Below are positions 33,833 through 62,464 of a DNA stretch of 64,000 nucleotides, piece after piece; the stretch's first letter is position 1; the number at the start of each line of letters is the position of its first letter. The stretch covers positions 164,716,575 through 164,780,574 of the forward strand of contig NC_134455.1 in the NCBI RefSeq assembly GCF_047948215.1, given 5' to 3'. The stretch comes from Lycorma delicatula (taxonomy: Eukaryota; Arthropoda; Insecta; Hemiptera; Fulgoridae). The translations under genes and the position numbers were made by a program. The notes under the pieces are model-generated. The model saw nothing but the letters and a program-made list of their open reading frames with translations. It did not search any database and was not told where the DNA came from.

Positions 33833-33994
33833 GGCCTCCGTGGCGCGAGTGGTAGCGTCTCGGCCTTTTGTCCGGAGGTCCCGGGTTCGAATCCCGGTCA
33901 GGCATGGCATTTTCACACACGCTATAACAATCATTCATCTCATCCTCTGAAGAATGCCTAACGGTGGATCCGGAAGTTAAAAAAAAAAAAAAAA
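33833..33994 (+). mobile_element. tRNA-derived SINE, family 1, best-preserved copy
   Basis: The head ggcctccgtggcgcgagtgg has an intact A box. The anticodon-like loop is followed by ccggaggtcccgggttcgaa with an intact B box and a paired T-arm (cccgg / ccggt region). Then come gtcaggcatggcattttc, a variable part, and the tail catcctctgaagaatgccta, acggtggatccggaagtt, ending in about 16 A. The tRNA part is closest in layout to tRNA-Glu, but its anticodon stem is mispaired and the downstream body continues, so it is a SINE and not a tRNA gene. Frames on the - strand here (PDRDSNPGPPDKRP) are typical spurious SINE translations. RNA polymerase III could start it from its internal boxes. Confidence 0.92.
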
Positions 33995-35619: not shown

Positions 35620-35831
35620 CTGGCCGGACAGCATATTTTATGTTTAGTGGCGTATTTAAATTCTTCTCCGAGCATGATCTGTTTGATGTTGGCGCTGAGG
35701 GTGCCTCAGAAACTCGCTGTGGGAGGCGCTAAGTTTAAAATTATGAAGGGAGTTCGAAGTGGTTGAACTCCGCTTCTAGAGGGGAGTGACCTGCCTAGTG
35801 TATATAAGAACAAGCTTTGCTGACCATCTTG
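35620..35831 (+). promoter_or_regulatory. Candidate core promoter with TATA box
   Basis: A patch clearly richer in G+C than its surroundings ends in tatataag at 35801-35808. About 25-30 bases later a pyrimidine-rich start region begins. Upstream, ggagttc and gaactcc form a 7-bp inverted repeat with a 9-bp spacer (about 35748-35771). Inference: this is the promoter of the lipocalin gene, whose first coding exon opens directly at a splice acceptor 6 kb downstream. Alternative: a solo LTR, since LTRs also carry TATA boxes. No matching second LTR was seen. Confidence 0.45.
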
Positions 35832-35882
35832 CCACAAACTGCTGCTCTTTGTCTTGCTGCTATTAACTTCATTAAGAATAAG
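35832..35882 (+). other. Candidate non-coding first exon (5' UTR) with donor site
   Basis: The stretch after the TATA box has no ATG and ends aataag followed by the donor gtatgt at 35883. Joined to the acceptor at 41859-41860, it would place A at -3 before the lipocalin start codon, a favourable context. No transcript evidence is available, so this is a prediction from position and splice signals. Confidence 0.4.
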
Positions 35883-41860: not shown

Positions 41861-41974
41861 ATGTATCAATTTCTACTTGTAATGGTGATGGGACTAGCTT
41901 TGGTGGGAGGACAAATTCCTAATTTGGGATGGTGTCCTGACTATGTTCCAATGGCAGATTTTGAAATGGATAAG
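41861..41974 (+). other. Lipocalin coding exon 1
   Basis: It encodes 38 whole codons: the signal peptide and N-terminal strand (GWCPDYVPMADFEMDK). The acceptor tttcag lies directly before ATG and the donor gtatgt follows at 41975. The 2458-nt intron after it holds a mariner relic (43170-44100). Confidence 0.95.
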
Positions 41975-44900
41975 GTATGTAAAATTAAAAAAACAGTAGT
42001 TATTACTGAATATTTACCTCTGATTATGATAAATAAAAAAAATTAGCTAATTTTTATGAAAGAAATGGTAGAAAAATGAGAACATTGATAAGATATATGG
42101 TGTAAAAGAAGAGAATATTAAGTTCAAAAAATTAAAACATGTTTTTTAAATAAAATTTTTTATAAAACATTCTGACTTCAAGTTTGTCTAATTATAGGGG
42201 GCAGACTGGAAATAATTTTTGAGGAGTAATGTGCTACTGGTTAAGTAACAGCACTTGACCATATTTTTATTACTACATCTCATTGTCTAAGATATATAAG
42301 GAGCATTTTTTTTTAAACTGTAATCTTTCTTTAAAAAATTAAAATCATAGTTTGGGATGGAATTAAATGAGTTCCAAATTAACTTCATAATATGTTTTTT
42401 ATGAATTAGAAAAATGCATTGTGTATTTGTGTGCCAACTATTACCTACCAACTTATTACATAACGCAAAAAACGTATTGTACAACTAAGTTTTAGTGTAA
42501 ACTGTAATTCACCATACTGCAGAAGTTTTCTTCTGAATTGAAAATTAAAATTTAAATATCTGTAAATTCATACTTATGGTCCAATCATAACCAAGTCTGT
42601 AATTTTAATCATTATCATTTACACCCTTCTAATTGAGTTAATTTTTTAGATTGTATGTCGACAAGAACATTTCCTGTAAAATTGACTGGCTGTGACAAAT
42701 TTATCTCTTCTTTTTATTTGTTCTGTGGTCAATAAATACTCTATAAAATAGGTACTACAAAATTTTATCAAAATGATAAAGAAAAATATGTTTGCACCAT
42801 TGGTATACGAAAATATTCCAAACTTATATGATTACTGCATGGCTATATCTATAGTGTTGCTCAACAAGCTAAATAGCTTAGTAAGTATGGATGGATATGA
42901 AATTGTATTACTTTGTGTGCTGGTCCAGGTGAATCAGTAATATTGGACTGCGGTAATAGTTTCTTCATATTTTCCCAGTAGATGGCTTTAGGATCAAGTA
43001 ACTCTGATAATATTAATCAATGTGTCAAAACTGTACACTTTTGAAAGGTGACATATTACTGAATATTTTTAGAAAGGTTATGATTACATTAACCTATTTA
43101 TTTAAAAATTATTGGGTCTTGAAATGAGAGAAAATAAAGAAGAAATTCAATATGTTTTGAGATTTTATTACTAAAAAACAGGAGAAGAATGCTGTTTAAA
43201 AATCTGTGATGTTTGTGAACATGATGCGGTATCAGTATGTGTGGCACAAAGCTGATTTAAGCTGTTTCCAATCTGGAAATTTTAATGTCAATAATGCACT
43301 TTGCTTTAGTTGGTCAATGACTGAAAAAGCTGATGAAATCATGGAAAAAACTGAGCAAAACTGGCACATTAGCGGTCAAGATATTAGTAGCAAACTACTA
43401 TCACTACTGTTTTTATCCACTATAAAACAGTATTAAATCATTTGAAGAAAGTTAGAAAAAACCTCAATTTTTTCTTTTACAACTTCTTTTTGTTTTCTTT
43501 CGTAAGCTTCACAAACAGTGAGAAAGCCAGGATTGACCCCAAAGAAAACTGATGCTGTGTGTGTGTGTGTGTGTGTGTGTGGGGGGGGGAGATTGGAAAG
43601 AAATTATTCACTATGAGCTGCAGGCACTCGGTCAAATGATTGATTTTGACCTCTACTGTCAATGACTGGAAAGATTACAACGAGCGATTGAGATAAAGCA
43701 ACCAGAATTGATTGATGAGAAAGATATTGTCTTCTATCATGACAACGCCAGGACCTCACACATTTTTGGTGACCTGTTTAAAATTCAGAGAGCTTGACTG
43801 GCTTGTTTTGATGCATTCACCATATAGTCCTGATCTTAAACATACAGACTACTGCAGAACTTTCACAGAACTTTAATACAAAACTTTCTATGAATAACAT
43901 AGAAAGTTAACTTTATAATGAAGTAAAATGTACTATATTTATAAGTAAATTTTTATACCATGTTAATGGTATATAAAGTTGGCTCAAAAGAGGCCTGTGA
44001 AAATCAATTATTCAAATTTTTTGTCCAGAAAACACAGAAGTTCTGTACAGTGATGGGATTATGATTTCACCTAAAAAATGGCAAAATCAAAAATAGGTGT
44101 TCAACTAGTAATCCAGCTAATTGCTTAAATAAACTTAATTTGAAATATAAAAAAAATTGTTTTACTTTTGCTTTAAAATATGAAGAAACGTTTTCCTCAA
44201 ACCCTTTATTTTAAAGATTACAGGTGCTGAATACTATCCCTAGCTGAAAAAATATTTTGTTATTTGAGTTCTCCTTAATAACAAATCCTTTCTTAAAAAT
44301 CTATAACTGTAACAAGCTGTAACTCATTATATAAATAAGGGATTCAAGTGCCTATGAGCCTTGAATCAACATAAACTGGTCAATCATATAAATACATGTA
44401 TATATAAAATAACAATTTACTTTTGTTAACAGTACCTTGGAACATGGTATGAACAAGAAAGATACTTTAGAGTAATGGAAGCTGGTAGCCGCTGTGTAAG
44501 AACAAATTATACCAAGGCAGTTGATGGAAGGATTTTAGTTGCTAGTGAAATAACAGGAAGATTGTAAGTGAGCTTATTTTTTTATGAACTAAAAATAAAT
44601 AAACATACTAAAATTTTAATATCATTTAGATGAATTGAAATTATATTTTGTCATAATATTTTAAATCATTCTTTGCAGAGGACATTCTTTGAAAAAACAT
44701 TCTTTTTATGTTGAAAGTAAAAAAGTGACGGATATACAATAATTTACCTTATTATCATAACCTGTTTTCTATTAAGACAGCTAACTCACTGATATAGAAT
44801 ATCTCTGCTAGATTCTTTTTTTTAATTATTTTTTTAATGATTTTATTCTCGACTTAATTTCACATCTGTCAATTCTAACCTTAGATGTTTTCTCCATCTT

Positions 44901-47900
44901 TTATTAACTTATGATGTATTGGTAGAGCTTGCTTTTAATTAATCTTCTTTTGTATATAACATGAATGGTACATGAATTACATGTTTGATTGTATAAAATG
45001 ATTGTCTTTTAATTTACTCTTCCGAAACTGTTTCATTTATTACTTTTATCTCCCCAGATGGGTTTTTCTACAGCTTATTTTAAATTTCTTAATTGTTACT
45101 TTTCTGTCTTTGGTTACACCTACTTTTTACACACATACTTCATAAAAACCAATTTGAGGTAATTATGAGACATTTCTTCAGGTTTAATTCCATTTTACTA
45201 CATGGCTAGTTTTTTAAAATATGTTTGTCTTTTTCCAACATTCAGTTGAAGTGCTTTTCAGAGACATCCATTGTTTTCTTGCTCTCTTCATTTCTGCATT
45301 TTAATGATGTTTTTATCAGCTTTTGTTATCATAATCTTTCCATAATTTTTCATTCCATAAAAAACCTGAGTAATTTTTGAGTAAGTTTTAAAAAAAAACA
45401 GTTTTTAAAAATAAGATTTTTAGAATTACAGGATCTCTGGATTTTTTTTCAACTACTATGGTCATTATTTAAAAAAAATCCAATAGCATGAACTAAAATT
45501 GCACCCTGTGTTATTAACTAAGGGAACCAGTTTGTTAAACATGGCTTTGGCCATTGTCATTACCTTTACAGCCTTCAATTTTTAGGATCTATTTTTTTAA
45601 ACATTCTATATATAATTCAGTTTAATGGAGAATACCCATTTAAAAATAATACTTTTGTCTCCATTTAATACATCTGAAACCAAAGATGGTAGCATCTCTA
45701 TTTCTTTTCATTCTAAATTTTCTCAATCTATTTCCAAATTTTTAATCTTCTTAGATTAAATTCCTTGAGTTTCTACTTCATATGTAAACATCTAATGAAT
45801 ACTCTATCCTTTTTCTTTTGACCTAATTTACTTTCAGCATTTCTTTAAACTTTGCTCTGCCACCTACTTTCAATCAAGTTTCTTGTTCATGTCAATGAAT
45901 TCTCATTTTCCTTTCTTTCCCTCTTTTTTTTAATAACCTTCAGTTGTTCACCATCATGTCCTGGATCACAGGGGTATCTTTGATAAGATTTATCTTTCCT
46001 AAACAGTATTTCTGAAATATTTTCTTCCATTTCGCTTATTTATTAATACAGTATGGAGGTGTAGACTTTCATTGCATGTTTAATCAGATTGATTTACTCA
46101 CAGATTGTTACTGAAAACAATAAATGCTGATTTACCACACAAACAAGTTTTTTTGAACTGGCTTGTAATTTTTTTTTTACAAATCCTTTCATAATTTCTA
46201 CTTTTAGTGTTGTAAAATGATTTGATTTTACAGTGCTTTGTTGAAGTCCTGTTTTTGTGTGTTTGTTCATTGTTGAAGATGAAAATATGCTTCTACTAAC
46301 ATAAAAATATGAATTTACTTATGCACTACTATTTTTATTCCATTTATTTTATAATTTTGTTTGAAAATATATTTGCTTTTATTATTATTTCTGCAGGCTT
46401 AATTTGTTATTATTTAAAAAAAAGTGTAATTAAAGAAATTTATGTCAAATTGTTAAAATTTAATCTTATCTTCACATTTGTAATATACATACTGTTATCT
46501 ATAGCATACATTTGTTTACTATATTGCATTTCATAGTTCTAGAACTTGATAGAATTTTTTTTAAAGAAAATGAAAGGAGTGTATATATTAAAAGTCAATT
46601 TTAAAGATATTAAAAACTACGCACTATTAAAAAATTTTGCTATTACTTTATGCAATCTTAAAAATATTTTTAAATTTATTGAGTTTAAAATATTTAACAC
46701 AATCTCAATATTTAATATCTTTTGCACATTTACAATAAAATTTTGTATTAATATTTACTTAAAAATACTCATACTAATATTACTTTTGCTAACTAATAAT
46801 AATAACAGATGAAACGGTTGTAATAATTAGTTATAAAAACCTTTAAATGTCTGTTTTTTGTACTTAATTGAAAATATTTCTTCAATTCCAGTTTATTTAG
46901 TTATTTTGTAGAAGTGAGCGTTTTGTGGTTAAGCTAAAGATATAAATCTTTTTCATATTCTTTAGATTCTATATATGATTCTATATATATTCTATATATG
47001 TTTTAGATTCTATATATGATTCTATATATGATTCTATATCATATTCTTATTATTATGTTTATTCTGCAGATTAAATTAACTTCAGACTGCTGAGCATGCA
47101 CAGATCCATTAACTCATGATCCACGGACAGTTTGAATTCTTAACCACAAAAATAACTAAAAATTTAACAATTAATCTTACTGGACAAAAAATTGAAACAT
47201 CCATAAATTGGATTAAATTTTTCAAACTGCTGGTAACCAGTAAATTCATGGTAAAAGATATTCATTGTATAAATCATTCTGAATTTTAATCAGTTCTATG
47301 TAGTTTTTTGTTTCTTTACTTATAAATAGATGTACTTTTTAAACTTTACTCTTTAAACATGTATGTTCAATAAGTTATCTTTCTTCCTCAAAATATTTTT
47401 AATAATAACAATACTATTATAATAAATAACATTAATGTTTTTATAATGTTAATGACGTGGAAAATTAAACAGTTTAAAAACAATAGTAATAGCTTTTCAA
47501 GTTAACATTTTCTTCTTGATTATTCATTATTTATTAAGAAAAATTGGTTATTAAATATATAAAAATATAGAAATTAAAATGAAATTAATACATCTAAGAA
47601 GATTATGAGTTATTTAACTTTCATTTCATGTTAACTCCAGCAATTAGCAAAATAACTGTTTTAGCAACAGCTGATTTTTATTGTTATCAGCTGTCAGAGT
47701 AATGAAAATAAAGTAATGTTATAATGCGAAAAATGGATTTATGTATTTATTTCACAAAGTATGTCAGATGTGTTTTGTGTGAGGGGTCAGTAGACTGTAG
47801 GGGGGCTGTTTGTTTGCAGGACGGGATTGAAGCGAGTCATTGAAGGAGAAATGTTGAAGGGGTCAGAACCAAGAATCAGCATCAAGTACCAGGTTCTCCC

Positions 47901-50900
47901 CTGTAAGTATCCAACAAAGTGAATTGTATTGTTTTTTTTCCAGGTCAGGCGTGAAACGAATTTTGGAAGGAGAGATTCGCCACCTGATCAAGGGAGCTGA
48001 GTCTCATATCAGCGTTAAGTATTCTACACTAACTTGTACGTGCTTTTCTTTCACAGATAATAACTAGCCATTCAGTATTTCAGTTTAACTTAGAACATTT
48101 TAAATTTTCTGCAAAAGAAATTTAACCACTGAAATGATAATGCTAAAAAAGTCATTCAGTGTTTTCCAGATGGTATTTAACCAAGGTTATAAGATGGAAA
48201 AATAGTTTTTATGAAGTTTAAGTACTTTAATTTTATTATCATGTTGGAATGTAGATTATGTAACTTCTTCAAAACAGCCTCTCTTAGCCTTTCTTAAGCA
48301 AGTTATTTATTAGACAGAATTCTTAATAAAAAAGGAAAAAGTTAATTATTATAAGTAAATGATCTTATTTTCTCAGTAACTGGAATAAAGTTTTCTAGAA
48401 AAATAAATTTGAAACATTTTTAAGGCTTCTAATTCAGTTATCTCCTTATCTAACTTAACAATTCTCAAAAATAATTATTTTTTCACTGAAAAGAGCTTAC
48501 TGTAATATTTTATTAAATAAATAATTCTCTTTATGAAAGGTTATCCTTGAATTCACTCTTTTCCTTTAATAACTCAAAATTCATACATGACTTTTCTATC
48601 AAATAACTCCATAAAAAGAGGAATTTAAAAACCAGCTGACTAAGTAGTTGACAGAAGTTCAATTATCAGCATTTGTTCTTTAGCAAAAATATCAATGTAT
48701 TTAAATAAATGTTAAAATGATATTTTGTTTTAATTTATCTTTTGCACAAGATATCTTGTTAAAAAAACATACTATGAAAAAATAATGGAAAATTTCCATA
48801 AATAAAGTCAACTGAATTTGTATGAAATTCTGGAGGGCTAAATCTCTTGTTCAACTTTTCTGAATTGGATAAATAGATACCAGCAATCCTTTTTGTACAG
48901 TAAATGTACTGTAGCTTATAGTATTCCTGAGTACCTTGATCAGTATATGTTAATTAGAACACAATAAAAGAATGATGGCTGGGATACATTACTGAGGAGC
49001 TAAAAAAAAGCATGAAAATTTAACTAGTCCAGCATAATTTGACTCGCCATGTGGAAAGGTCAAATACTAACTCTCATACAATGCCAACTTATATGAATTA
49101 ATCTAATACTATCAAAATAATAGAATTAAAAATTATTATACATCTACATCAGACTTTAGTCTCAATTGTCTAAAGAAGCAGTATAAGATTATGATTTGAA
49201 AATAATACTTCTTATGAACTAATTATATGAGCCACATATGACCCATACATCAAAATTTATTTAGCTTTGAAAATTATATAAACTTGCATTTTTTATACTT
49301 CTTTATTTGGTCATATGTTGTTGAGGTTGAGTTCCAAATACTGAAAATTATAATGTCTCAACTACAATAATTTCGGAGGTGACAATATCTTTTCATCACG
49401 AGGTAAATCCACTGTGATTGCGTGGATTATGCATGGACATCATATTTATCTGATTTAACATCGGATAAATATGATGTTTACATAGACAAGTTATAAAGTT
49501 GTCTATATAGAACTACATTAAAATGAAAGTTTTGTGAGTCTACCTCCTGTTGTTAGTTTTTTTTTTAATCTCCAGAACCATCATTAGGGATTACTTCTGA
49601 TGATGAGATGAATGATGATTTTTGTAGGGTGTGAAAATGCCATGCCTGACTGGGATTTGAACTTGGGACTTTCAGATGAAAGGCTGAGATACTACCACTC
49701 GCACCATGGAGGCCTGTTGTTTAAATTAATTATTATAGATAACAGAAGTTATTGCTACCATAAACGCTGACAAAATTCGTAGGATTTGGGTTCATATCAG
49801 TCGCAGATAGAATATATATGCTACAGTGTGTTCAGAAAGTTGCTGTGTAGTAAGCTTTAGAATTATGAATTGCATTCTGTTCTTTCAGCATTAGGTTGGT
49901 TACCCTGTGGGTTCATTTGGCGTTGCTCAGTAATAAACCAAGACATCAATTGTTGAGTTGTGATTGAACATGCTTCGATTTGTTTATCGGAATCAATAGT
50001 TGTGAGAAATGTAACGGTTTTTTTATTAGAGGAATGCATTCTTCTTGTTGAACATGTCTTTTGTGAAGGTAACAATTGTACTGATTTAGTGAAGCACAAG
50101 TTTTCTTAAAAGTTTCCAAATTCTCCTGTTCCTCCCGCAATGCACTTCAAACTTTTATCAAAGAATTTCAGGCAACAGGCTCTGTTGAAGATACTGATCG
50201 AAGTGGAAGACCAGCTAAACTAAAGAAACAGAAGCTGCTTGATTTTTTTTGGATGCTATGGCCGAAAATCCATCAAAGCCAATGCAAAATTTAGCAAAGC
50301 AGGAAGATATCGGACCAACTATTGCGCATAAAGTTGAAAGAAAAGAACTGAAACTTTTCCTCTACAAAGTAATGTGTGTTCAAGAACTGAAACCTACAGT
50401 TCATGCTAAAAAGTCAAAAGAGTAAATTATTGTCAATGATTTAAACGTTTTATTGACCAAAATTCCATAGGTATTCTTGACATTATGTTTTTTACAGATG
50501 AAGCATAGTTTCATCTGGGAGGATATATTAATTCACAAAATCCTTGATTGTGGTCGACAACTAACCCCTATGAATTACAAGAAAAATCTTTACATGAAGT
50601 AAAAATTGGAGTCTGTGTTGGTGTGAGTAGAATGCCCACTGTGGGTACAATCTTTTTTGAGAATACATTTAATAGTGATTGTTATTGTGCTGTTTTTACA
50701 AACTTCATTAATCAGTTAACTGAAGTGGAAATTAATTATGATTGGTTTCAACAATGTGAAGCCACAGCACTCACAACCAATAAATAGGTCAATGACTTTT
50801 TTATGAAATGTCTTTGGTGAATGAATCATTTCAATGTGTTTGTGGCTTGCACGATCACCTGATCTGACTTCCCCAGATTACTTTCTATGGGAGGCAACAA

Positions 50901-53900
50901 AACAAGCAGTGTATTGCAACAGATCATGCATGATTGAGGAACTAAAAACCTCAACAATGGCAAACAAGACATTTCAGTACATCAGTACTGTGTTTGAAAA
51001 CTAATTGAAACATGTGCAGTGTTGAACTGATGTTGGATGTCATTTTCAACACCTCTTATAAACTATTCCATTTATTGCAATATCTATTTCTATAAAATAT
51101 TGAAATAGAAATACAAAGTAAGTATATTTTTATCATTCAAATGTATATTAAAAATTTTTATTTTAAATGAAAAAACATTCATGAAGCTAAAAAATTATGT
51201 TATCAAATTATGTCAATTATGTTATGAAAAAAGTCGATCCACAGTTCTAACAACACTAAAAGGATTAAAGATATTTTATGCCATTGTCAGCAAGATTAAT
51301 AATTGTTTTGTATGTATAACATCTGCTTTGCAAAGAAAGAAGACTTACAAAAATAAGAATCTAATCCCATTATTCTGGATAAGAATATTAGCTAAATACT
51401 AGATTATGAAGGATAAATAAAGGAAGAGAAATACAAGTGTTATTAGGATAATTACAGTAAAAACAGGATGCAGAATACAGGACGCTAAGCAGTTGCAGTA
51501 ATGTGTAAATAGGTCAGAACTCTAAAATTATATTTTATGGTTGTGATGAAGAACTTGAAACTTAAGGAGTTAATTATAATTTGGATGACTGTAATTTAAA
51601 TGTCTGTGACAGTGTAATTAATTAACTTAATCAATTTTACTTTTATTTTTAAAAAAATATTTATTTTTATGTTTTCATTTTGTTGCAGTCCCAGTTGAAA
51701 TGTCCTATACTGTTCTTGATACTGACTATGATACATATTCTGTAGTATGGTCGTGTTCTGGTCTGGGTCCTGTTAATACACGTAAGTGTTAAGTAATTTT
51801 TTGAACTTATTTAATTTTCATCAACATGCAATACTGCTTTCCATAATAACTACAGTTTATTCTGGAAATTCATTATAGTTCCATTTATTCATTATTGGAC
51901 AGAACAAAATATCTTTCAGTGTATTACTTAGTTGATCAGCATGATAAAACACGAATATTTAAAAAAAATATATTTACTCCTCATTTGTTTTTTCGTCACT
52001 TCCCATACAACAATAGTAATTTGTGAAATCCTACTAATGTTCCTATATTTTGTTAAACGTTAAAAGTAATGGTTCCCATCCTCCACTCTCACAGAAATGG
52101 TTGTCTGCAGCATGTTTTGGAATCAAAGAAATATTTTTAAAGTGTGTTTTACCTTTGTTTTAATTTCTAACTATTTTTCATCATTACCTTCATTTTGTTC
52201 ATTTCAACATCAAAGCATTATTTCTCAAACCAAACACAATTTTTTATCTAATTCTCAGAGTTAGTCAATCTGAATATATTTATCTTTGACAAATCTTGAA
52301 AAAATTACAAAACTTCTTTTCTTTTGTCTCTATCAATCTCATTGTCTTGGAGATACTATGAAACGATTGTTCCAAGTTGGGGACATATGTTTGCATTCAT
52401 CCATTCCCAGTTCTTATCATTACTCATAAATCTGCACATCGCATACTTGGTTAGAGTAATTTTCCCTTCTACTTTCATTAATTTTCTTTATTTTTTAATG
52501 CTTTGTGAATTATTTCTTACAGTTAGAATAATATTATTTTTTTATTTCTTATTAAGTTTTATTTCTAAATTAATGCTAATTTTATTGCACTGCACACTAG
52601 CTCTTAAGCTGATATTTACTGAAATTGGGTTACCTGTTGTAAATTATTATTTTAAATAAATAGATTATTATGAAAACTAAAGTAAAAAAGTTAATGTTAA
52701 TGGAACTCTGAACTCTCTGTTACAATCTATACTATTAAGACTCTACTGCTTAACTTTGTAGCACTTCTTTGTTAAGAACAAGTTATTCTTTTTTTTAGAA
52801 AAAAAAATGATCTGTATTATAGGAAAACAGATTTTTAATGCTTTATTTTATGATATGAAAATGTTGAAATGTAGTTTTTTCTTTGTTGAGTATTAAAACT
52901 AGTAAGCAAATGTAGATCCATATCTTAATCTAAGTAAACATTGAATAATAATAAAAATAAAAAGGAGAAATTGTCTCTTCAGACATGTACTGTATCTCAG
53001 ACAATAAAAAATTTTGCTTTTAATTATTCCGTAAACCTTTTGAAGATGAACTGAAACAGAAACATTAAAGAAGACAAGTAAGATCAACATAATAAAAAAT
53101 AAGTCTTAATGTAGAACATAGAGATAAAATGGGAACTGGAAAAAGTTTAAAAGAAACGATTTTGGTAATATGTATAATGGTAATATAAAATAAAAATAAT
53201 AATAATGAGAAAAAACTGAAAATTGTTTGGTTCTAAATAGTCTAAACAGATAACGTTTTGCATAAGATGTAGATAATAATGATTGGATAATGTTATAAAA
53301 TGAAGAACATATCAGGTTATATGTGTTATTGTTTGTGTCTAATAGAAACCAGAAAATATTTGGTGATGAAATTTAAGTAAGGGTGAAAAAAATAAAATAG
53401 ATGGAAAGATGTGTAATGAGTAACCATTACAATGGTAATGTAAAGAGAATGTAATTTCATCTGCAGGGTTACCTGAACTTAAATCATGATACTGGTTCAA
53501 AAGATAAAAAACATTGGCGATTTCTTCAAATCATGGGAGAATAACATCAAATTCACATCTGGTGAATGTTAAATTTCAGATAACCAGTCATCATCAACAC
53601 AAAACTGATTTATTTCTATATGGAGCTCTGATGTACAGAACTACCTAAAAGTACATATTGAAATCTTATTTTCTGCATAAAAGTAACTTTTATATATTTT
53701 TTAACATTAAGTTAATATTTATTTATTGGCTGAATTATGGAAATATTTTTATGAATATGTTGGCTTTTTTTTATATAATTACACCATGCAAGAACTATCG
53801 CATGAAAATAAACAAGAACAAAACAAAAGTAATGAAATGTAGTAGAAATAACAAAGATGGACCACTGAATGTGAAAATAGGAGGAGAAAAGATTATGGAG

Positions 53901-56693
53901 GTAGAAGAATTTTGTTATTTGGGAAGTAAAATTACTAAAGATGGACGAAGCAGGAGCGATATAAAATGCCGAATAGCACAAGCTAAACGAGCCTTCAGTA
54001 AGAAATATAATTTGTTTACATCAAAAATTAATTTAAATCTCAGGAAAAGATTTTTGAAAGTGTATTATGTTTGGAGTGTCGCTTTATATGGAAGTGAAAC
54101 TTGGACAATCGGAGTATCTGAGAAGAAAAGATTAGAAGCTTTTGAAATGTGGTGCTATAGGAGAATGTTAAAAATCAGATGGGTGGATAAAGTGACAAAT
54201 GAAGAGGTATTGCGGCAAATAGATGAAGAAAGAAGCATTTGGAAGAATATAGTTAAAAGAAGAGACAGACTTATAGGCCACATACTAAGGCATCCTGGAA
54301 TAGTCGCTTTAATATTGGAAGGACAGGTAGAAGGGAAAAATTGTGTAGGCAGGCCACGTTTGGAGTATGTAAAACAAATTGTTGGGGATGTAGGATGTAG
54401 AGGGTATACTGAAATGAAACGACTAGCACTAGATAGGGAATCTTGGAGAGCTGCATCAAACCAGTCAAATGACTGAAGACAAAAAAAAAAAAATTACACC
54501 ATAAATACTGCTACAACAGTCAGTTGTCAGTGCCAGTAAAAGGTTTCATTTGGTGGATTCGAGTCAATGCCCGGATTGCGGGATTGATGATGCAGTGGAC
54601 CATGTCCTTTACGTCTGTCCCCAATATGAGGTCGAACGTTCATAAGCTGTTAGGGAACTTGAGAGAATACATTCCTTTCTGGATCTCCATACCAACTGGA
54701 TGATCTGCGAGGAATGGTCTATAGTGGCTGGTTTACTTGGTGCCCTTGCGGTGTGTAGGTCTGCAGAGGGAGTTTGATAGAGGTACTCGATCATGGTAGG
54801 ATCCCGGGTGGCTAGGGTTCCAGCTTAGGCATTGGATTGGTTGGAGGTAGGCGCATTGGCATCGTGCCATGGTTATATTGGTATTGTTTGTGATTCGATT
54901 TGGGATTCCCGCTGGTGGGGGTGGCTGCGCTGCCGAGGACCAGGGGAGTGGCTTCCCTCTGCTGGTGGTGGTCCTGATTATGTCTTGGTAATGCCATGCA
55001 AGACACCATGATGGGACCAGGTGGGGTGTGGGGTTTGTCCCCGCTCCTGCGCGGATCGGAATGAGGTTGCCTTGTTAGGTGATCTAAACTGGTAGACTTA
55101 TTTGGGTGTAGGTCTGAATTTCTATGTTGCATAAAACACAATTTTGATTGGTCTGAGTCTGATTAAACTTTAAACTCGTTTGATTTCTGAGGCATTCACA
55201 GTCACGAACAGTGTTGTCAAATCTGTACTAGGCGTGGGGTTCGCGCTTCTGCTGTGTCAGTTACTTAGTTTGAGGGAATCATGTTAGGTTGGATATGAAG
55301 TTGTCTGTTTGAGGCCTACGTGAAGGTGAAATTTGATATCTGTTTACTGATACAAATGTCTGCTGAGGCATTTACATCGGTGGCATCCCGACCAAGGCCT
55401 GGCTGATGACTGTGAGATGTAATCAGTTAGAGGGTCTAAAGATGACCTCCAGTAAAGTCCCTCAGGGTTTGGAACGAATGGGTGATGTGGTGACTGGTAA
55501 AGTCACAATGTGGCTGTCTTCCCCCTACGGGGTTGGGATGGCAGTAAATAACAGTTGCTTGTCAGTAATATGTCTATGTATAAGATGGATACTTTCAAAA
55601 TCAAGGTAACATTTTCATGTAAAAATTCTACCAGTGCCTTTTCAATGGTAGAATTCTCACTGTGTGTATTGGTTCCTGTAGTTCAACAAAGTAAACAAAC
55701 ATCATGTTGAGTTTCTATTTGGGTGGGTGATTTCTTGTATTTTCAAAGTACTTGTAATTACTATAGAAGTTATTACTGCTTTTAAAATTTACTGAAATAA
55801 GATAATAACCTGCCGAATTAGTCTAGTGATTAAGCTTGTCATCACAAAATCAGCTGATTTTCGAAGTTGAGAATTCAAAGATTCGATCCGTTTAAAGTCA
55901 GTTGCTTTTACATGGATTTCAATGCTAGACTGTGGATGTTGGTGTTCTTTGTTGGTTGGGTTTCAGTCAACCACACACCTCAGGAATGGTCGACCTGAGT
56001 CTGTACCAGATTACATGTTACTAGTATATTTACATCTACTTGCACTATATCTGGAGCTACGTCAGGCCTGGCCAGCCGGTAGTGGTAAATGCAATTGCTA
56101 ATCTACACACACACACACACATCCTGACCTGGCAGTAGCTGGAAAACTGGTTCGAGAAAACAAAAAACTGAAATAAGATAATATGTTAATAATTTAGTGA
56201 ATGTTTGCTATTGTTAATGTGTTTATAGTTAATGTGTTTTAATTTAGTTTGTTAAATACTTTCATATCACCTGATTTATTTTTCAGAGAGTGCTTGGGTG
56301 ATGACCAGAGAACGTCTTGCACCAGGAACTGTTCTTCAAAAGGCTTATGGTGTACTTGATAAATACAAAATAAGTCGTACATTCTTTGTGAAAACTGATC
56401 AAGCGGACTGCGCCATTGCAGAAGCTGCTGCAGCTAACAAAGAACAAGAAAATAAAGTAACTACAACAGGAAAATCAGCAGAACATATTGAAGAACCAGA
56501 TGATAAAAAGCATCCAGAGGCAAATATTCACTCAGAAGTAGTAAAACCAGAAGTTGAAAAGCCAAGTTCTTCAGTTTCATCTGATGATGTTCATATTCCA
56601 GTTGTGGTAGATAGTAAACCACATCATGAACATCACATAAAACCACATGTAGCAGAAACAACAGCCAAACACTCCTCTCCTAAAGTTCACTAA
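41861..56693 (+). CDS. Secreted lipocalin, apolipoprotein D / Lazarillo type, with mutually exclusive exon 3
   Basis: Spliced coding exons: 41861-41974, 44433-44563, either 47820-47902 (3A) or 47944-48035 (3B), 51689-51781, and 56287-56693 including the stop. The product has 275 (3A) or 278 (3B) residues. Every junction is GT-AG with phases 0, 2, 1, 1. Residues 1-18 form a signal peptide (MYQFLLVMVMGLALVGG). Family marks: GWCP (Cys25), the GxW motif YLGTWYE (Trp43), Cys59, a glycosylation site NYT at 63, DTDYDTYSVVWSC (the TDY motif, Cys132) and an Arg-containing third motif, MTRERLAPGT (residues 146-155). Cys182 lies in TDQADC. In apolipoprotein D four such cysteines form two disulfides. The family binds small hydrophobic ligands outside the cell or in haemolymph. 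An unusual tail of about 90 residues, acidic and rich in His, follows Cys182. The start is set by the acceptor directly before ATG and by the signal peptide. Confidence 0.95.
43170..44100 (+). pseudogene. Mariner transposase relic in lipocalin intron 1
   Basis: The + strand shows FNVNNALCFSWSMTEKADEI, MEKTEQNWHISGQDISSKL and TVLNHLKK, the helix-turn-helix part of a mariner transposase. Farther on come EIIHYELQALGQMIDFDLYC, ELIDEKDIVFYHDNARTSH (with one catalytic Asp) and KEACENQLFKFFVQK from the C-terminus. The region around the first catalytic acid is lost or replaced by a GT microsatellite. Many frameshifts and stops are present. Confidence 0.85.
43557..43589. repeat. (GT)n run followed by a G run
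   Basis: About twelve GT units and then nine G. It lies inside the mariner relic where the WDWKGI-type segment would be. Confidence 0.9.
44433..44563 (+). other. Lipocalin coding exon 2
   Basis: It opens YLGTWYEQERYF, the lipocalin signature, and ends inside a Leu codon (phase 2). The acceptor is ttttgttaacag and the donor gtaagtg. Its partner exon must supply one base; both 3A and 3B supply G. Confidence 0.95.
46965..47045. repeat. Short tandem repeat of gattctatatat
   Basis: The words tagattctatatatgattc and tctatatat recur about six times with small length changes. It lies in the intron before exon 3A. Confidence 0.85.
47820..47902 (+). other. Lipocalin alternative exon 3A
   Basis: 83 nt between acceptor tgtttgcag and donor gtaagtat, a strong match to consensus. 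It completes Leu82 and adds 27 residues (TGLKRVIEGEML, KGSEPRISIKYQVLP) before leaving one base, T, that exon 4 completes to Phe. By position in the fold it forms barrel strands B-C and the turn leading to strand D. Confidence 0.92.
47903..47943 (+). promoter_or_regulatory. 41-nt spacer between exons 3A and 3B
   Basis: The spacer starts gtaagt and ends ccag. At 41 nt it is shorter than introns normally removed in insects, so splicing 3A directly to 3B should be sterically blocked. This is a known way to make exons mutually exclusive. Confidence 0.8.
47944..48035 (+). other. Lipocalin alternative exon 3B
   Basis: 92 nt between a strong polypyrimidine acceptor (ttttttttccag) and donor gtacgtg, which is weaker than that of 3A. 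It has the same phases as 3A and adds 30 residues (SGVKRILEGEIRH, LIKGAESHISVKYSTLT), three more than 3A, all in the turn. The two are clearly homologous (xGhKRhhEGE..., ISxKY) but well diverged, so the duplication is old and both copies have been kept open. Confidence 0.92.
49437..49477. repeat. 41-nt intronic hairpin
   Basis: The arms acatcatatttatc and gataaatatgatgt pair perfectly (14 bp) and pairing continues inward with one G-T pair to a 7-base loop. It lies in the intron between exons 3B and 4. Confidence 0.85.
49555..49712 (-). mobile_element. tRNA-derived SINE, family 1, in lipocalin intron
   Basis: Reverse complement: ggcctccatggtgcgagtgg, cctttcatctgaaagtccc, gtcaggcatggcattttc and the tail ttctggag with a T run on the + strand. 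Direct repeats cctgttgtt at 49546-49554 and 49713-49721 mark the insertion. It lies antisense to the gene. Confidence 0.9.
49812..51060 (+). pseudogene. Tc1/mariner-like transposase relic in lipocalin intron
   Basis: The + strand shows FIKEFQATGSVEDTDRSGRP, then LDIMFFTDEA with one catalytic Asp. After one stop come FHLGGYINSQNP and LWSTTNPYELQEKSLHEVKI, then GVCVGVSRM...GTIFFENTFN. DWFQQCEATALTTN follows where the family has WFQQDGATAHT, so the second catalytic Asp is Cys. The end RSPDLTSPDYFLWEATKQ is shifted in frame. The family is the same kind as the fragment at 10014-10350. It is inactive. Confidence 0.85.
51689..51781 (+). other. Lipocalin coding exon 4
   Basis: After completing a Phe codon it encodes PVEMSYTVLDTDYDTYSVVW and SCSGLGPVNT, with the TDY motif and the third cysteine. 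The acceptor is tgttgcag and the donor gtaagtg. Confidence 0.95.
53777..54502 (+). mobile_element. 5'-truncated LINE in last lipocalin intron, with target duplication
   Basis: The body 53788-54491 ends in an A run and is flanked by aattacaccat at 53777-53787 and 54492-54502. It encodes the C-terminal end of an endonuclease/reverse transcriptase protein: MKINKNKTKVMKCSRNN, EEFCYLGSKITKDGRSRSDI, LYGSETWT, LEAFEMWCYRRMLKI, GHILRHPG, GRPRLEYVKQI, then TGA at 54474-54476. No internal stop breaks this part, so it is young. The longer open frame that starts at 53658 includes about 43 residues of flanking intron and should not be read as protein. The catalytic domain is absent. Confidence 0.92.
54510..55545 (+). 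mobile_element. R1-like LINE 3' part
   Basis: From 54544 the + strand encodes SSQCPDCGIDDAVDHVLYVC, PQYEVERS, then a stop, and AVRELERIHSFLD. The CCHC knuckle C-x2-C-x8-H-x4-C is typical of the ORF2 C-terminus in R1-type LINEs. A GC-rich untranslated tail follows, which matches 5275-5870 down to cttccccctacggggttggg. It lies directly after the truncated LINE at 53777, in the same orientation. Confidence 0.75.
55811..56010 (+). mobile_element. tRNA-derived SINE, family 2, in last lipocalin intron
   Basis: It begins gccgaattagtctagtgatt (A box), then tcgaagttgagaattcaaag with the B box agattcgatcc, and the central part ttgttggttgggtttcagtc and acctcaggaatggtcgacct. The shared tail is missing or worn. 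An AC run follows at 56101-56120. Confidence 0.82.
56287..56693 (+). other. Lipocalin last coding exon with His-rich tail
   Basis: It begins within a Gln codon and encodes the last strands, the helix and Cys182, then about 90 residues of low complexity with 11 His, many Glu, Lys, Ser and a PHHEHH cluster. It ends TAA at 56691-56693. Confidence 0.95.
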
Positions 56694-57022: not shown

Positions 57023-57275
57023 ATTATGAATTTATTCCTCTGCTGTTTAAAATGGATTCCATGACAGAAATTAGATATTAGATATTTACTTGCTTTTTAT
57101 TAAACATTCATTTATTTATTTAAAATGACAAAATATAAAAATAAGAAACCAGAATTTTAGAATTTCACATCAAAATGTTTATTTTAAACAATACTACTAT
57201 ACAGTAATATCATTTTATTATAATAGAATCATTTAAATTAAATCATTATCTCTGATACTTTTTAATCTTTACATA

Positions 57276-58130
57276 GAACTAGCAATTAAAGATGTTAAAG
57301 AACAATTTAGATTCGGAGTAACAGTACAAGGTGAAAAGATAAAGATGCTACGATTTGCTGATGATATAGTAATTCTAGCTGAGAGTAAAAAGGATTTAGA
57401 AGAAGCAATGAACGGCATGGATGAAGTCCTACGCATGAACTACCACATGAAAATAAACAAGAACAAAACGAAAGTAATGAAATGTAGTAGAAATAACGAA
57501 GATGGACCACTGAATGTGAAGATAAGAGGAGAAAAGATTATGGAGGTAGAAGAATTTTGTTATTTGGGAAGTAGAATTACTAAAGATGGACGAAGCAGGA
57601 GCGACATAAAATGCTGAATAGCACATGCGAAATGAGCCTTCAGTCAGAAATATAATTTGTTTACATCAAAAATTAATTTAAATGTCAGGAAAAGATTTTT
57701 GAAAATATACATTTGGAGTGTTGCTTTATATGGAAGTGAAACTTGGACAATCAGAGTATCTGAGAAGAAAATATTAGAAGCTTTTGAAATGTGGTGCTAT
57801 AGGAGAATGTTAAAAATCAAATGGGTGGATAAAGTGACAAATGAAGAGATGTTGCGGCAAATAGATGAAGAAAGAAGCATTTGGAAAAATATAGCTAAAA
57901 GAAGAGACAGACTTATAGGCTACATATTAAGGCATCCTGGAATAGTCGCTTTAATATTGGAGGGTCAGGTAGAAGGAAAAAATTGTGTAGGCAGGCAACG
58001 TTTGGAATATGTAAAACAAATTGTTAGGGATGTAGGATGTAGGGGGTATACCGAAATGAAAAGACTAGCACTAAATAGGGAATCTTGGAGAACTGCATCA
58101 AAGCAGTCAAATGACTGAAGACAAAAAAAA
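57276..58130 (+). mobile_element. Second copy of the 5'-truncated LINE, downstream of the lipocalin
   Basis: It extends farther 5' than the copy at 53788 and includes MLRFADDIVILAES, the FADD catalytic motif of the reverse transcriptase (about 57345-57385). After it the frame runs parallel to the first copy, with two TGA stops at 57615 and 57633, and ends at TGA 58116 and an A run. The two copies are near-identical at many stretches and on the same strand. Target duplications could not be identified. Confidence 0.9.
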
Positions 58131-59939: not shown

Positions 59940-62464
59940 AAATAATTTATAGAACTAAGAAAAGGCGCTGAGCTCTGATTCTTAGTGGAACAATAGATAA
60001 AGGCCGTTCCTCGTATCAATTAGCATGCAGATTGAACACTATCAAAGGTAGGATGACATGGTTGCACTTTAATGCAAGTTACATAGGAGTAAACCATTTG
60101 GTTTCGTCCATTCCAAAGAGATGGTTCACCACTTTCCACTAATAGACTTACGATGGGACTTGAACGAAACGCATATATACCAATACAAATAAAGAATGAT
60201 TGAATAAATCGAGCATCTTTAGAGCGGTGGCCCGTGCGGATGAATAAGCCACGCAGTAGTAGTTTAAGCGAGAACGGACCAGAGCTCGGTAGAAGAGCAA
60301 CATGCATATACGATCGCTTCCCCAACGAGTGTAGATAAAACTCTCAGATGTCTAAAATTTTTAGACATTTTGCCTTCAGCTCCTTCAAATGTGTTATCCA
60401 CGTTAGTCGTTTGTCAAACCAGAACCGTAGAAATCTAACCCGCGTGCATAGTTCAATTGTTTCACCATATAAAAACACTTGAGAATCAACATAATCCTCA
60501 ACCGGGAAAATCAAATGTATTTGGTTTTTTTCCGGAGAAAACCTGAATTCAATCAATTTACACCACGACTCTAAACGGGTTATTGTGTTTTGAAGCATTA
60601 TCTCACCAGAAATAGAAAATAGAAAAATCATCAACAAAAAAGAATACATAACAAATTTTCACACGCACTTTATTGTAGTATTTATGGATACGACAAACAA
60701 AGCAACACTTAGGATACTTCCCTGTGGTATTCCGTTTTCTAGTGTGAAATTTTCGGATATCGTCTTTCCAACTCGAACTCGAAAGGACCAATTATTTGTT
60801 GAAGAAACTCCTTATGAATGCAAGGAGATTCTCTTGTATAGCCCATGTATGCACTGTATTTAGAATTCCTACCCTCTACGCCTTGTCGTATGTCTTCTAC
60901 AAATCGAAAAATACAACAACGTACGGTAACTTGAGGGGCATGATTAGTTTTTACCGGATTTCAGTATAGCAATCCCCAGTGCTTCTGACCAAGAATCTGG
61001 GAACACCTGGTCAGACAATAGTTTATTATAGATACACAAGAGATGTCGTAATGTATCTGAGAGGTGTGATAACATACTAAGCGTGATACTATCATTTCCA
61101 GGGGAAATGTCACGAGAATTATTTAAGGCATACCTTTGCTTATTCAAATAAAAGAATATGTTTAATTCATTTTTCGAGCCTCTAATCATGGGGTGTTTTC
61201 TACCTGCAAAACTCAGGACAATACGATGATGTAAATGAAACTTGCCTGAACGACCTTTCAAAGGTTTTCTCCATATCAATTGGCGCGGTAATTAGGAACC
61301 CGCTGCTTTCTAATCCAATCGGCTGCAGTAACTGTACCGATCCACACGTGGCCCGAACCTTTCTCCAAACAACCGATGTTGGAGTTATCCGAGAAATGAT
61401 ATCGACATAATTTATCCATGATTTCCGTTTAGCACACCAATACACTCGACGCCAAACAGCCCTCGCGTTGAATAAGATGCAGAGCGCAATTCAGTAGTCC
61501 GTCTTCGATTGAAATTTCTAAAAGCTCGGTGCCGATCCCTTAGTGCATTCCTGCAGTCTTCATCTTACCAAGGAACATCAGACCGCCTTGGTTTTCCAAG
61601 TGTTAAAGGGATAAAGCATCTGCACTATCGAGTATCAGATGTTTAAACTTGGCAAGTTGGTGGATCAAGCCAGCACTGTTGTCATATTGGCCAAAGGAAT
61701 CCTTGTATCCGATCCATTCCGAATCGTCCATATGCGTGGCTGAGTCTGAAGCAAATCATTATTACCGACGGAGATAACAACCGGTCTATGATCGCTTCCA
61801 AAGAGGTTTATGCAAATGCGCCAGGTAAGACGTGGGAATGGGTTGCTGAACACAATGACAGATCGATGTACAAAAATGTACCTGATGAAGGTATAAACGT
61901 GTACAACCCATCGTTTAATAAGCAGAGATCTATGTTCAGTCTCAATCGACCAGCTATAGTATGTTCTGGAAGAACATGATGATGATGAGCTTCATGAAAA
62001 TTGATGGGCGTTTAAATCGCCAATTATTAGGCAGGGTAAGGGATCTGCGAAAACACACTAGACAGATCATCCTTAGTGATATTGGAATTTATTGGAACAT
62101 ATATATTGCAGATATTCATTTTAAATGGCGCCAATATGTTCACTCAGACTGCAGGAATGTTTGTCACTAGCGAAATACGTGCGGCTGATACGGTTTCCTT
62201 CCGGAAAACATGCACACCTTCACGTCTTCTGCGCTCAGTTTGATAGTCGCATCTTTCACAGACATAACCGCGAAAGTGTATATCATCCTGCGGATGGAGG
62301 TTAATCTCCTGCAGCCACAGTATTACAGGATTTTCTTCCTTTAGTAGGATTTCAATATCCTCACGGCGGAAACGGAAAACCCAGACATTCCACTGGATAA
62401 TATTTGTGGTCATAGGAAATACATTTTTCCTTTTATATACTATTTTTCTCCTGTTTAGACTCAA
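59940..62464 (-). mobile_element. Decayed I-like LINE, ORF2 on the - strand
   Basis: In - strand order: an endonuclease start NIIQWNVWVFRFRREDIEIL (from about 62410), ENPVILWLQEINLHPQDD, and an endonuclease end segment LFGSDHRPVVISV (about 61810). Next come linker pieces at 61445-61200 and reverse transcriptase RDISPGNDSITLSMLSHLSD (about 61110-61050), FPDSWSEA, and the catalytic FVDDF (about 60630). Post-catalytic SPEKNQIHLIF and LTWITHLKEL follow, then a C-terminal part AFRSSPIVSLLVESGEPSL (about 60160-60100). These blocks are characteristic of the I clade. Frameshifts and stops separate them, so it is inactive. Confidence 0.82.

Follow-up and report, generated by a model that had tools for sequence, protein, structure and literature searches.

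The locus raises the question of whether a single lipocalin gene of the spotted lanternfly Lycorma delicatula, a planthopper, can give rise to two different carriers by choosing between two neighbouring versions of its third exon. The gene lies on the forward strand of a stretch of 64,000 nucleotides (assembly GCF_047948215.1, contig NC_134455.1, positions 164,716,575 to 164,780,574), which is referred to below as the window and in whose numbering all positions are given. The original prediction read two tandem exons, 3A (47820–47902) and 3B (47944–48035), as alternatives swapping a part of the barrel in an apolipoprotein D (ApoD)-type gene. This reading was sustained by the gene model, by an NCBI record named 'isoform X2', and by a division of proteins of delphacid planthoppers into A and B types, while the strands that it assigned to the exon and the change that it proposed for the pocket edge did not stand. 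Very probably, 3A and 3B are a pair of mutually exclusive exons that arose by tandem duplication of one exon in a lipocalin gene of the ApoD/Lazarillo type.

Exon 1 (41861–41974, 114 nt) carries the start codon, an N-terminus that by eye resembles a signal peptide, and the motif GWCPDY, and corresponds to residues 1–38 of the NCBI isoform (P0001). Exon 2 (44433–44563, 131 nt) contains the GTWYE motif and, according to the structural model, strands A–C. It is followed by exon 3A (83 nt, 28 residues; acceptor tttgcag, donor gtaagt), an intron of 41 bases (47903–47943), and exon 3B (92 nt, 31 residues; acceptor ttttccag, donor gtacgt). Exon 4 (51689–51781, 93 nt) encodes strands F and G and the start of strand H in the model, and exon 5 (56287–56693, 407 nt including the stop codon) encodes the remainder of strand H, the C-terminal helix, and a low-complexity tail. 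The positions originally predicted for the end of exon 2 (44563), for both copies of exon 3, and for the start of exon 4 (51689) agreed with this model. Joining of exons 1, 2, 3A, 4, and 5 yielded a protein of 275 amino acids identical over 275/275 residues to 'apolipoprotein D-like isoform X2 [Lycorma delicatula]' (P0001), in which exon 3A is used. With 3B in place of 3A, an equally complete protein of 278 amino acids was obtained. Both forms scored above the cut-offs of the two lipocalin profiles of Pfam, and both the profile and the fold of lipocalins were found; of the solved structures, human apolipoprotein D (2hzq) matched the 3A form best. In 79 aligned proteins, drawn from the 133 relatives described below, C59, C132, and C182 were invariant and C25 was present in at least 90%; these four cysteines appear to fit the two disulphide bonds of ApoD/Lazarillo lipocalins. 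Insect members of this type include NLaz and GLaz. The gene product is predicted to be a secreted ApoD/Lazarillo-type lipocalin, presumably binding hydrophobic ligands as the family does.

The tandem pair itself is real. Homology, adjacency, common phase, open frames, and good splice sites had all been predicted for 3A and 3B, and the gene model and alignment bore this out. Both exons are bordered by AG and GT, begin in phase 2 and end in phase 1, have lengths of 2 modulo 3, and are open. Their peptides, with the first split codon included and the last left out, are LTGLKRVIEGE---MLKGSEPRISIKYQVLP for 3A and LSGVKRILEGEIRHLIKGAESHISVKYSTLT for 3B. Global alignment of the two peptides (BLOSUM62, with the junction codon of exon 4 included) gave a score of 82, compared to a mean of −16, a standard deviation of 8, and a maximum of 13 in 2000 shuffles. 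Random stretches of these lengths were open in a fixed frame in 16% (83 bases) and 13% (92 bases) of 20000 draws each from the first 41 kb of the window, so the open frames by themselves say little, and the case is carried by homology, splice phase, and the database match. The GC content was 48% in 3A and 45% in 3B, compared to 24% in the 500 bases on either side. A tblastn search of the window with both exons revealed nothing further better than E 0.2 that could be a third copy. The pair was not listed by a repeat scan of the window, probably because ungapped seeds are ill-suited to the divergence of the copies, which differ at about half of their residues. An assembly error or an artefactual tandem copy has a negligible probability, given this divergence and the fact that each copy has a counterpart of the same length in a protein of another planthopper.

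A comparison of synonymous and replacement changes between the copies, which the original prediction had proposed, pointed to constraint: in a small sample of 29 codons with one chosen gap position, pS was 0.73 and dS 2.8, near saturation, whereas pN was 0.29 and dN 0.36. The contrast between pS and pN had a p-value of 0.0004 with rounded site counts. With dS near saturation and dN lower, the exon seems to have been duplicated long ago, and the two copies as a whole look constrained. These values bear on the idea that Lycorma uses one copy only and that the other is an intact-looking relic exon. The use of both exons is predicted from DNA and protein records, and the 3B donor gtacgt is weaker than the 3A donor gtaagt when compared to the consensus. 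We nevertheless regard a relic as quite improbable: 3A is present in the NCBI isoform, and the number X2 that it bears implies that the Lycorma gene has one or more further isoforms; 3B retains 25/31 residues in common with its counterpart in Laodelphax striatellus; and per site, synonymous changes between the copies far exceed replacement changes.

Mutually exclusive exons are a well-known kind of arrangement, described in PMC3228551 by such criteria as neighbouring internal positions and similar length. Exons 3A and 3B are neighbouring internal exons of 83 and 92 nt, 41 nt apart, homologous, and compatible in frame and splice sites. Since both lengths are 2 modulo 3, the frame is lost if both exons are taken. 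Joining of 3A to 3B leads to a stop at codon 113, 174 nt upstream of the last junction, and skipping of both leads to a stop at codon 85, 83 nt upstream of it. Stops at these distances are the usual setting for nonsense-mediated decay, which would clear mis-spliced products, while each productive transcript would take exactly one of the two exons. Joining would also be blocked at the splicing step. In PMC7969005, a distance of ~50 nt from donor to branch point is given as the limit below which two splice sites cannot be used together; in an intron of 41 nt any branch point violates this limit, and no room would be left for one far enough from the 3A donor. The case would resemble exons 4a/4b of OGDH in the same source, where the intron is short and the branch point lies too near the upstream donor for joining; it differs in that the OGDH intron measures 118–131 nt in birds and mammals and has mapped distant branch points, whereas the Lycorma intron measures 41 nt in all and any branch point in it is hypothetical. 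No consensus (yUnAy-like) branch point was found in the 41-nt intron by a simple motif score. In alpha-tropomyosin, too, the intron between the exons is short and the branch point is too close to the upstream donor. By eye, exon 3A is preceded by a run of G and then a short pyrimidine stretch, and its donor is strong; exon 3B is preceded by a long T-tract, and its donor is weaker when judged by the consensus. The intron before 3A is AT-rich apart from runs of G (gtgaggggtc, taggggggct) at 47780–47806, close upstream of the acceptor; these may be sites for splicing regulators.

The part of the barrel encoded by exon 3 was located on AlphaFold models of the A-type protein P0001 and of the B-type protein P0008 of L. 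striatellus, which stands in for the 3B isoform of Lycorma. The pLDDT over exon 3, in blocks of 10 residues, was 87–91 in P0001 and 90–95 in P0008, and the same eight barrel strands were present in both models. Strands B and C with the turn to strand D had been expected here; according to the models, exon 3 comprises the end of the C-D loop, strand D (residues 86–94 in A, 86–93 in B), the D-E turn (95–99 in A, 94–102 in B), strand E (100–105 in A, 103–108 in B), and the start of the E-F loop. The prediction that 3B is three residues longer in a turn was correct as to length, and the turn is that between D and E. In lipocalins, the D-E turn is located at the closed end of the barrel. A change of length at this end should not reshape the mouth, so the different pocket edge that had been proposed does not follow. 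A different mouth could nevertheless arise where the exon runs into the C-D and E-F loops, with YQVLPF in A and YSTLTF in Lycorma B. According to PMC8530192, the antioxidant residue Met93 of human ApoD lies within a hydrophobic patch at the pocket entrance; as we read the structure-match alignment, the equivalent position would lie just behind the junction of exons 3 and 4.

If the two exons are alternatives in one gene, proteins of related insects should differ mainly in the segment encoded by exon 3, and such a difference was found in planthoppers of another family. Lycorma belongs to Fulgoridae, and N. lugens and L. striatellus belong to Delphacidae. N. lugens has an A-type protein (P0006), and L. 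striatellus has a B-type protein (P0008), which was the top match to 3B. The two delphacid proteins were identical at 37/38 residues in exon 1, 42/43 in exon 2, 31/31 in exon 4, and 46/47 in the core of exon 5 (156/159 in sum). In the tail, identity was 64/81, and in exon 3 it fell to 15/28. With the tail left out, exon 3 differed from the other core blocks with Fisher p 5e-10. A difference concentrated in this exon is as predicted by alternative use of two exons of one gene. P0006 is an entry of nr without a contig, named 'apolipoprotein D-like protein 2', which would fit a transcript-derived record.

The distribution of the two forms was surveyed in 133 distinct proteins, combined from the best 120 of 202 and the best 120 of 228 matches and including Lycorma isoform X2; the exon-3 segment was obtained from 133/133. 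The protein database was clustered at 90% identity, so isoforms differing in exon 3 alone are merged; the cluster of isoform X2 had 2 members and that of P0006 had 5. Among the matches listed, the segment had 28 residues in 2, 30 in 1, 31 in 94, 32 in 33, and 33 in 3 proteins, and the 28-residue form was present in Lycorma X2 and N. lugens P0006 only. A search for further A-type proteins with residues 70–120 of P0001 yielded P0001 alone, out of 2 candidates; its sensitivity was low, as N. lugens P0006 was missed as well. All named hemipterans other than planthoppers (17/17), the named thrips, and three lice were closer to 3B by at least 12 score units. Exon 3B has the common length of 31 residues and follows the hemipteran pattern, so within Hemiptera it looks ancestral and 3A derived. 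Exon 3A has some residues in common with more distant insects, and its ancestry beyond Hemiptera is less clear. Among the listed relatives, four proteins of moths, a bee, and a beetle (P0002, P0003, P0005, P0010) have 400–456 amino acids and, by eye, two ApoD-type lipocalin domains in a row. In Plodia, the two-domain form of 416 amino acids has its N-terminal half in common with a single-domain isoform of 304 amino acids (P0073). These two-domain proteins may stem from read-through transcription or from gene models in which neighbouring genes were fused. Two further relatives, P0004 and P0007, are similar to them in length.

Several observations weigh against an either-or pair. The original prediction called for the same pair in related insects; A-type and B-type proteins were found in two delphacids, while the pair was read in DNA of Lycorma alone. 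That a further NCBI isoform X1 is the 3B form is our inference from the number X2. All intronic duplex scans (6/6) for RNA pairing of the Dscam type that could steer the choice fell within the range of 20 shuffled queries each, in coarse windows and one species. The A exons of Lycorma and N. lugens are identical at 13/28 residues, and the N. lugens A exon is identical to Lycorma 3B at 14/28. Outside Hemiptera the A/B split is blurred: when scored against the Lycorma exons, 86 of the 133 listed segments were closer to 3B, 17 were tied, and 30 were closer to 3A, the last comprising P0001, P0006, and 28 others, many of them from bees, wasps, moths, and beetles. In an exon-3 tree of 20 segments (the two exons of the window and 18 other proteins; 31 columns, hand-placed gaps, 1/17 branches starred, and one bee row out of register with a very long branch), the N. 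lugens A segment stood among lacewing, beetle, and louse rows and Lycorma 3A stood elsewhere, so that the A exons were not joined. A clade of Lycorma 3A and 3B only, corresponding to a duplication in the Lycorma line alone, was not rejected (p-AU 0.20). A common clade of the A exons was likewise not rejected (p-AU 0.20), and 3B grouped with Laodelphax B at 94/93 on a branch that was not starred.

In an alternative reading, the A and B types of delphacids are two separate genes, or products of separate duplications, and the Lycorma pair is a local event. The delphacid evidence consists of protein sequences from two species, and a Lycorma-only origin is compatible with the tree. We consider this explanation unlikely, since old paralogues would differ throughout, whereas the delphacid divergence is concentrated in exon 3 with 156/159 residues identical elsewhere in the core, and since the unusual length of 28 residues is found in both A forms. 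The latter also have GLKRV.EG.M in common, of which GLKRV occurs in some moths as well. Because of the common length, a single origin of the A exon before the two families split is our preference. Exon 3A would be a shorter, fast-changing form, so far seen among the matches listed in two planthoppers only.

With 3A and 3B taken as a mutually exclusive pair, the gene would provide one secreted carrier frame in which a switch with two positions, at exon 3, determines strands D and E. The two lipocalins would differ in these strands, with the bulk of the barrel, the C-terminal helix, and the tail in common. If the choice is regulated and the isoforms differ in function, the gene would probably supply a second carrier, specific to certain tissues or to one sex, in which the barrel wall is changed. 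Rates of change bear on this point. Lycorma and N. lugens are identical at 118/121 core residues outside exon 3, from which the 13/28 of the A exons differ with p 2e-10. The A comparison also differs from the B comparison (25/31 between Lycorma 3B and Laodelphax; p 0.008), the two being made with different delphacid species, and branch lengths in the tree were 0.70 and 0.81 for the A exons of Lycorma and N. lugens and 0.18 and 0.04 for the two B exons of planthoppers. The B exon is itself faster than its own core (25/31 vs. 116/121, p 0.01). A less probable reading, though one of some weight, is that splicing follows this scheme, but with an unregulated choice and two equivalent proteins. The predicted folds of the A and B types are alike, with strands D and E kept, and no steering RNA pairing emerged from the duplex scans. 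The divergence of the A exons, compared to the conserved core, argues against equivalence; relaxed constraint on a redundant copy could also explain it, and the B exon too outpaces its core.

A more specific role for 3A can be put forward with considerable doubt, namely that it is a reproductive isoform, for which a conserved ApoD gene would lend its frame to a product of the male accessory gland, with only the swapped strands evolving fast. In N. lugens, two ApoD proteins were reported among secreted seminal-fluid proteins, with extremely high expression in the accessory gland (RPKM over 1000; PMC4990865). It is a guess that the A-type N. lugens record is one of these two.

No ApoD-type or other secreted lipocalin with mutually exclusive exons was found among the open-licence papers listed, as judged by titles and the openings of abstracts, and no paper combining lipocalin, exon duplication, alternative splicing, and insect was found there. 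The nearest case found within lipid-binding barrels was CgiLBP5 of the Pacific oyster, which has a duplicated third exon according to PMC5399370. It is a molluscan member of the intracellular lipid-binding proteins (iLBP), unlike the secreted ApoD-type lipocalin of Lycorma, and an independent origin is presumed. Compared to human ApoD (2hzq) and the insect ApoD/Lazarillo-type lipocalins, the Lycorma gene is distinguished by having the exon that encodes strands D and E in two versions and by a long low-complexity C-terminal tail. Part of this is already in databases, where the name of the NCBI isoform implies multiple isoforms in Lycorma; what appears to be new is the recognition of an either-or pair and of the matching A/B split in delphacid planthoppers. 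Lipocalin repertoires commonly expand by gene duplication. Here one exon was duplicated rather than the whole gene, which would give two carriers that differ in strands D and E while sharing the signal peptide, the tail, and the greater part of the barrel, and a natural pair of isoforms for asking what these strands contribute to ligand choice or partner binding. Surveys that retain the longest transcript only would miss such a pair; a 2026 survey of ApoD kept only the longest transcript per gene, according to PMC13373240.

Stretches resembling mobile elements were noticed within and around the gene. Two similar open stretches of one retrotransposon were seen by eye at 53800–54476, in intron 4, and at 57240–58118, behind the gene. 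A match to Pfam RVT_1 (E 4.8e-14) was obtained at 57237–57614, within the second stretch, and the other pieces scanned had no Pfam match. Broken mariner-like transposase frames were noticed by eye at 49850–51050, in the intron between 3B and exon 4; two fragments of them gave no Pfam match. A tRNA-like stretch occurs at 33833–33910 (gtggcgcgagtggtagcg...ggttcgaatccc), and what by eye is a diverged copy of it in reverse orientation lies at 49625–49715, in the intron before exon 4. ARAGORN reported no tRNA, and the stretch and its reverse copy look like the head of a short interspersed element (SINE). A long stretch at 60000–62420 resembles, by eye only, the reverse strand of a non-LTR (long terminal repeat) retrotransposon. 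Upstream of the gene, a non-coding exon is expected because the start codon stands directly behind the acceptor of exon 1, and a candidate promoter (gtatataag) with a candidate 5' non-coding exon ending in aag|gtatgt was found by eye on the forward strand at 35800–35882.

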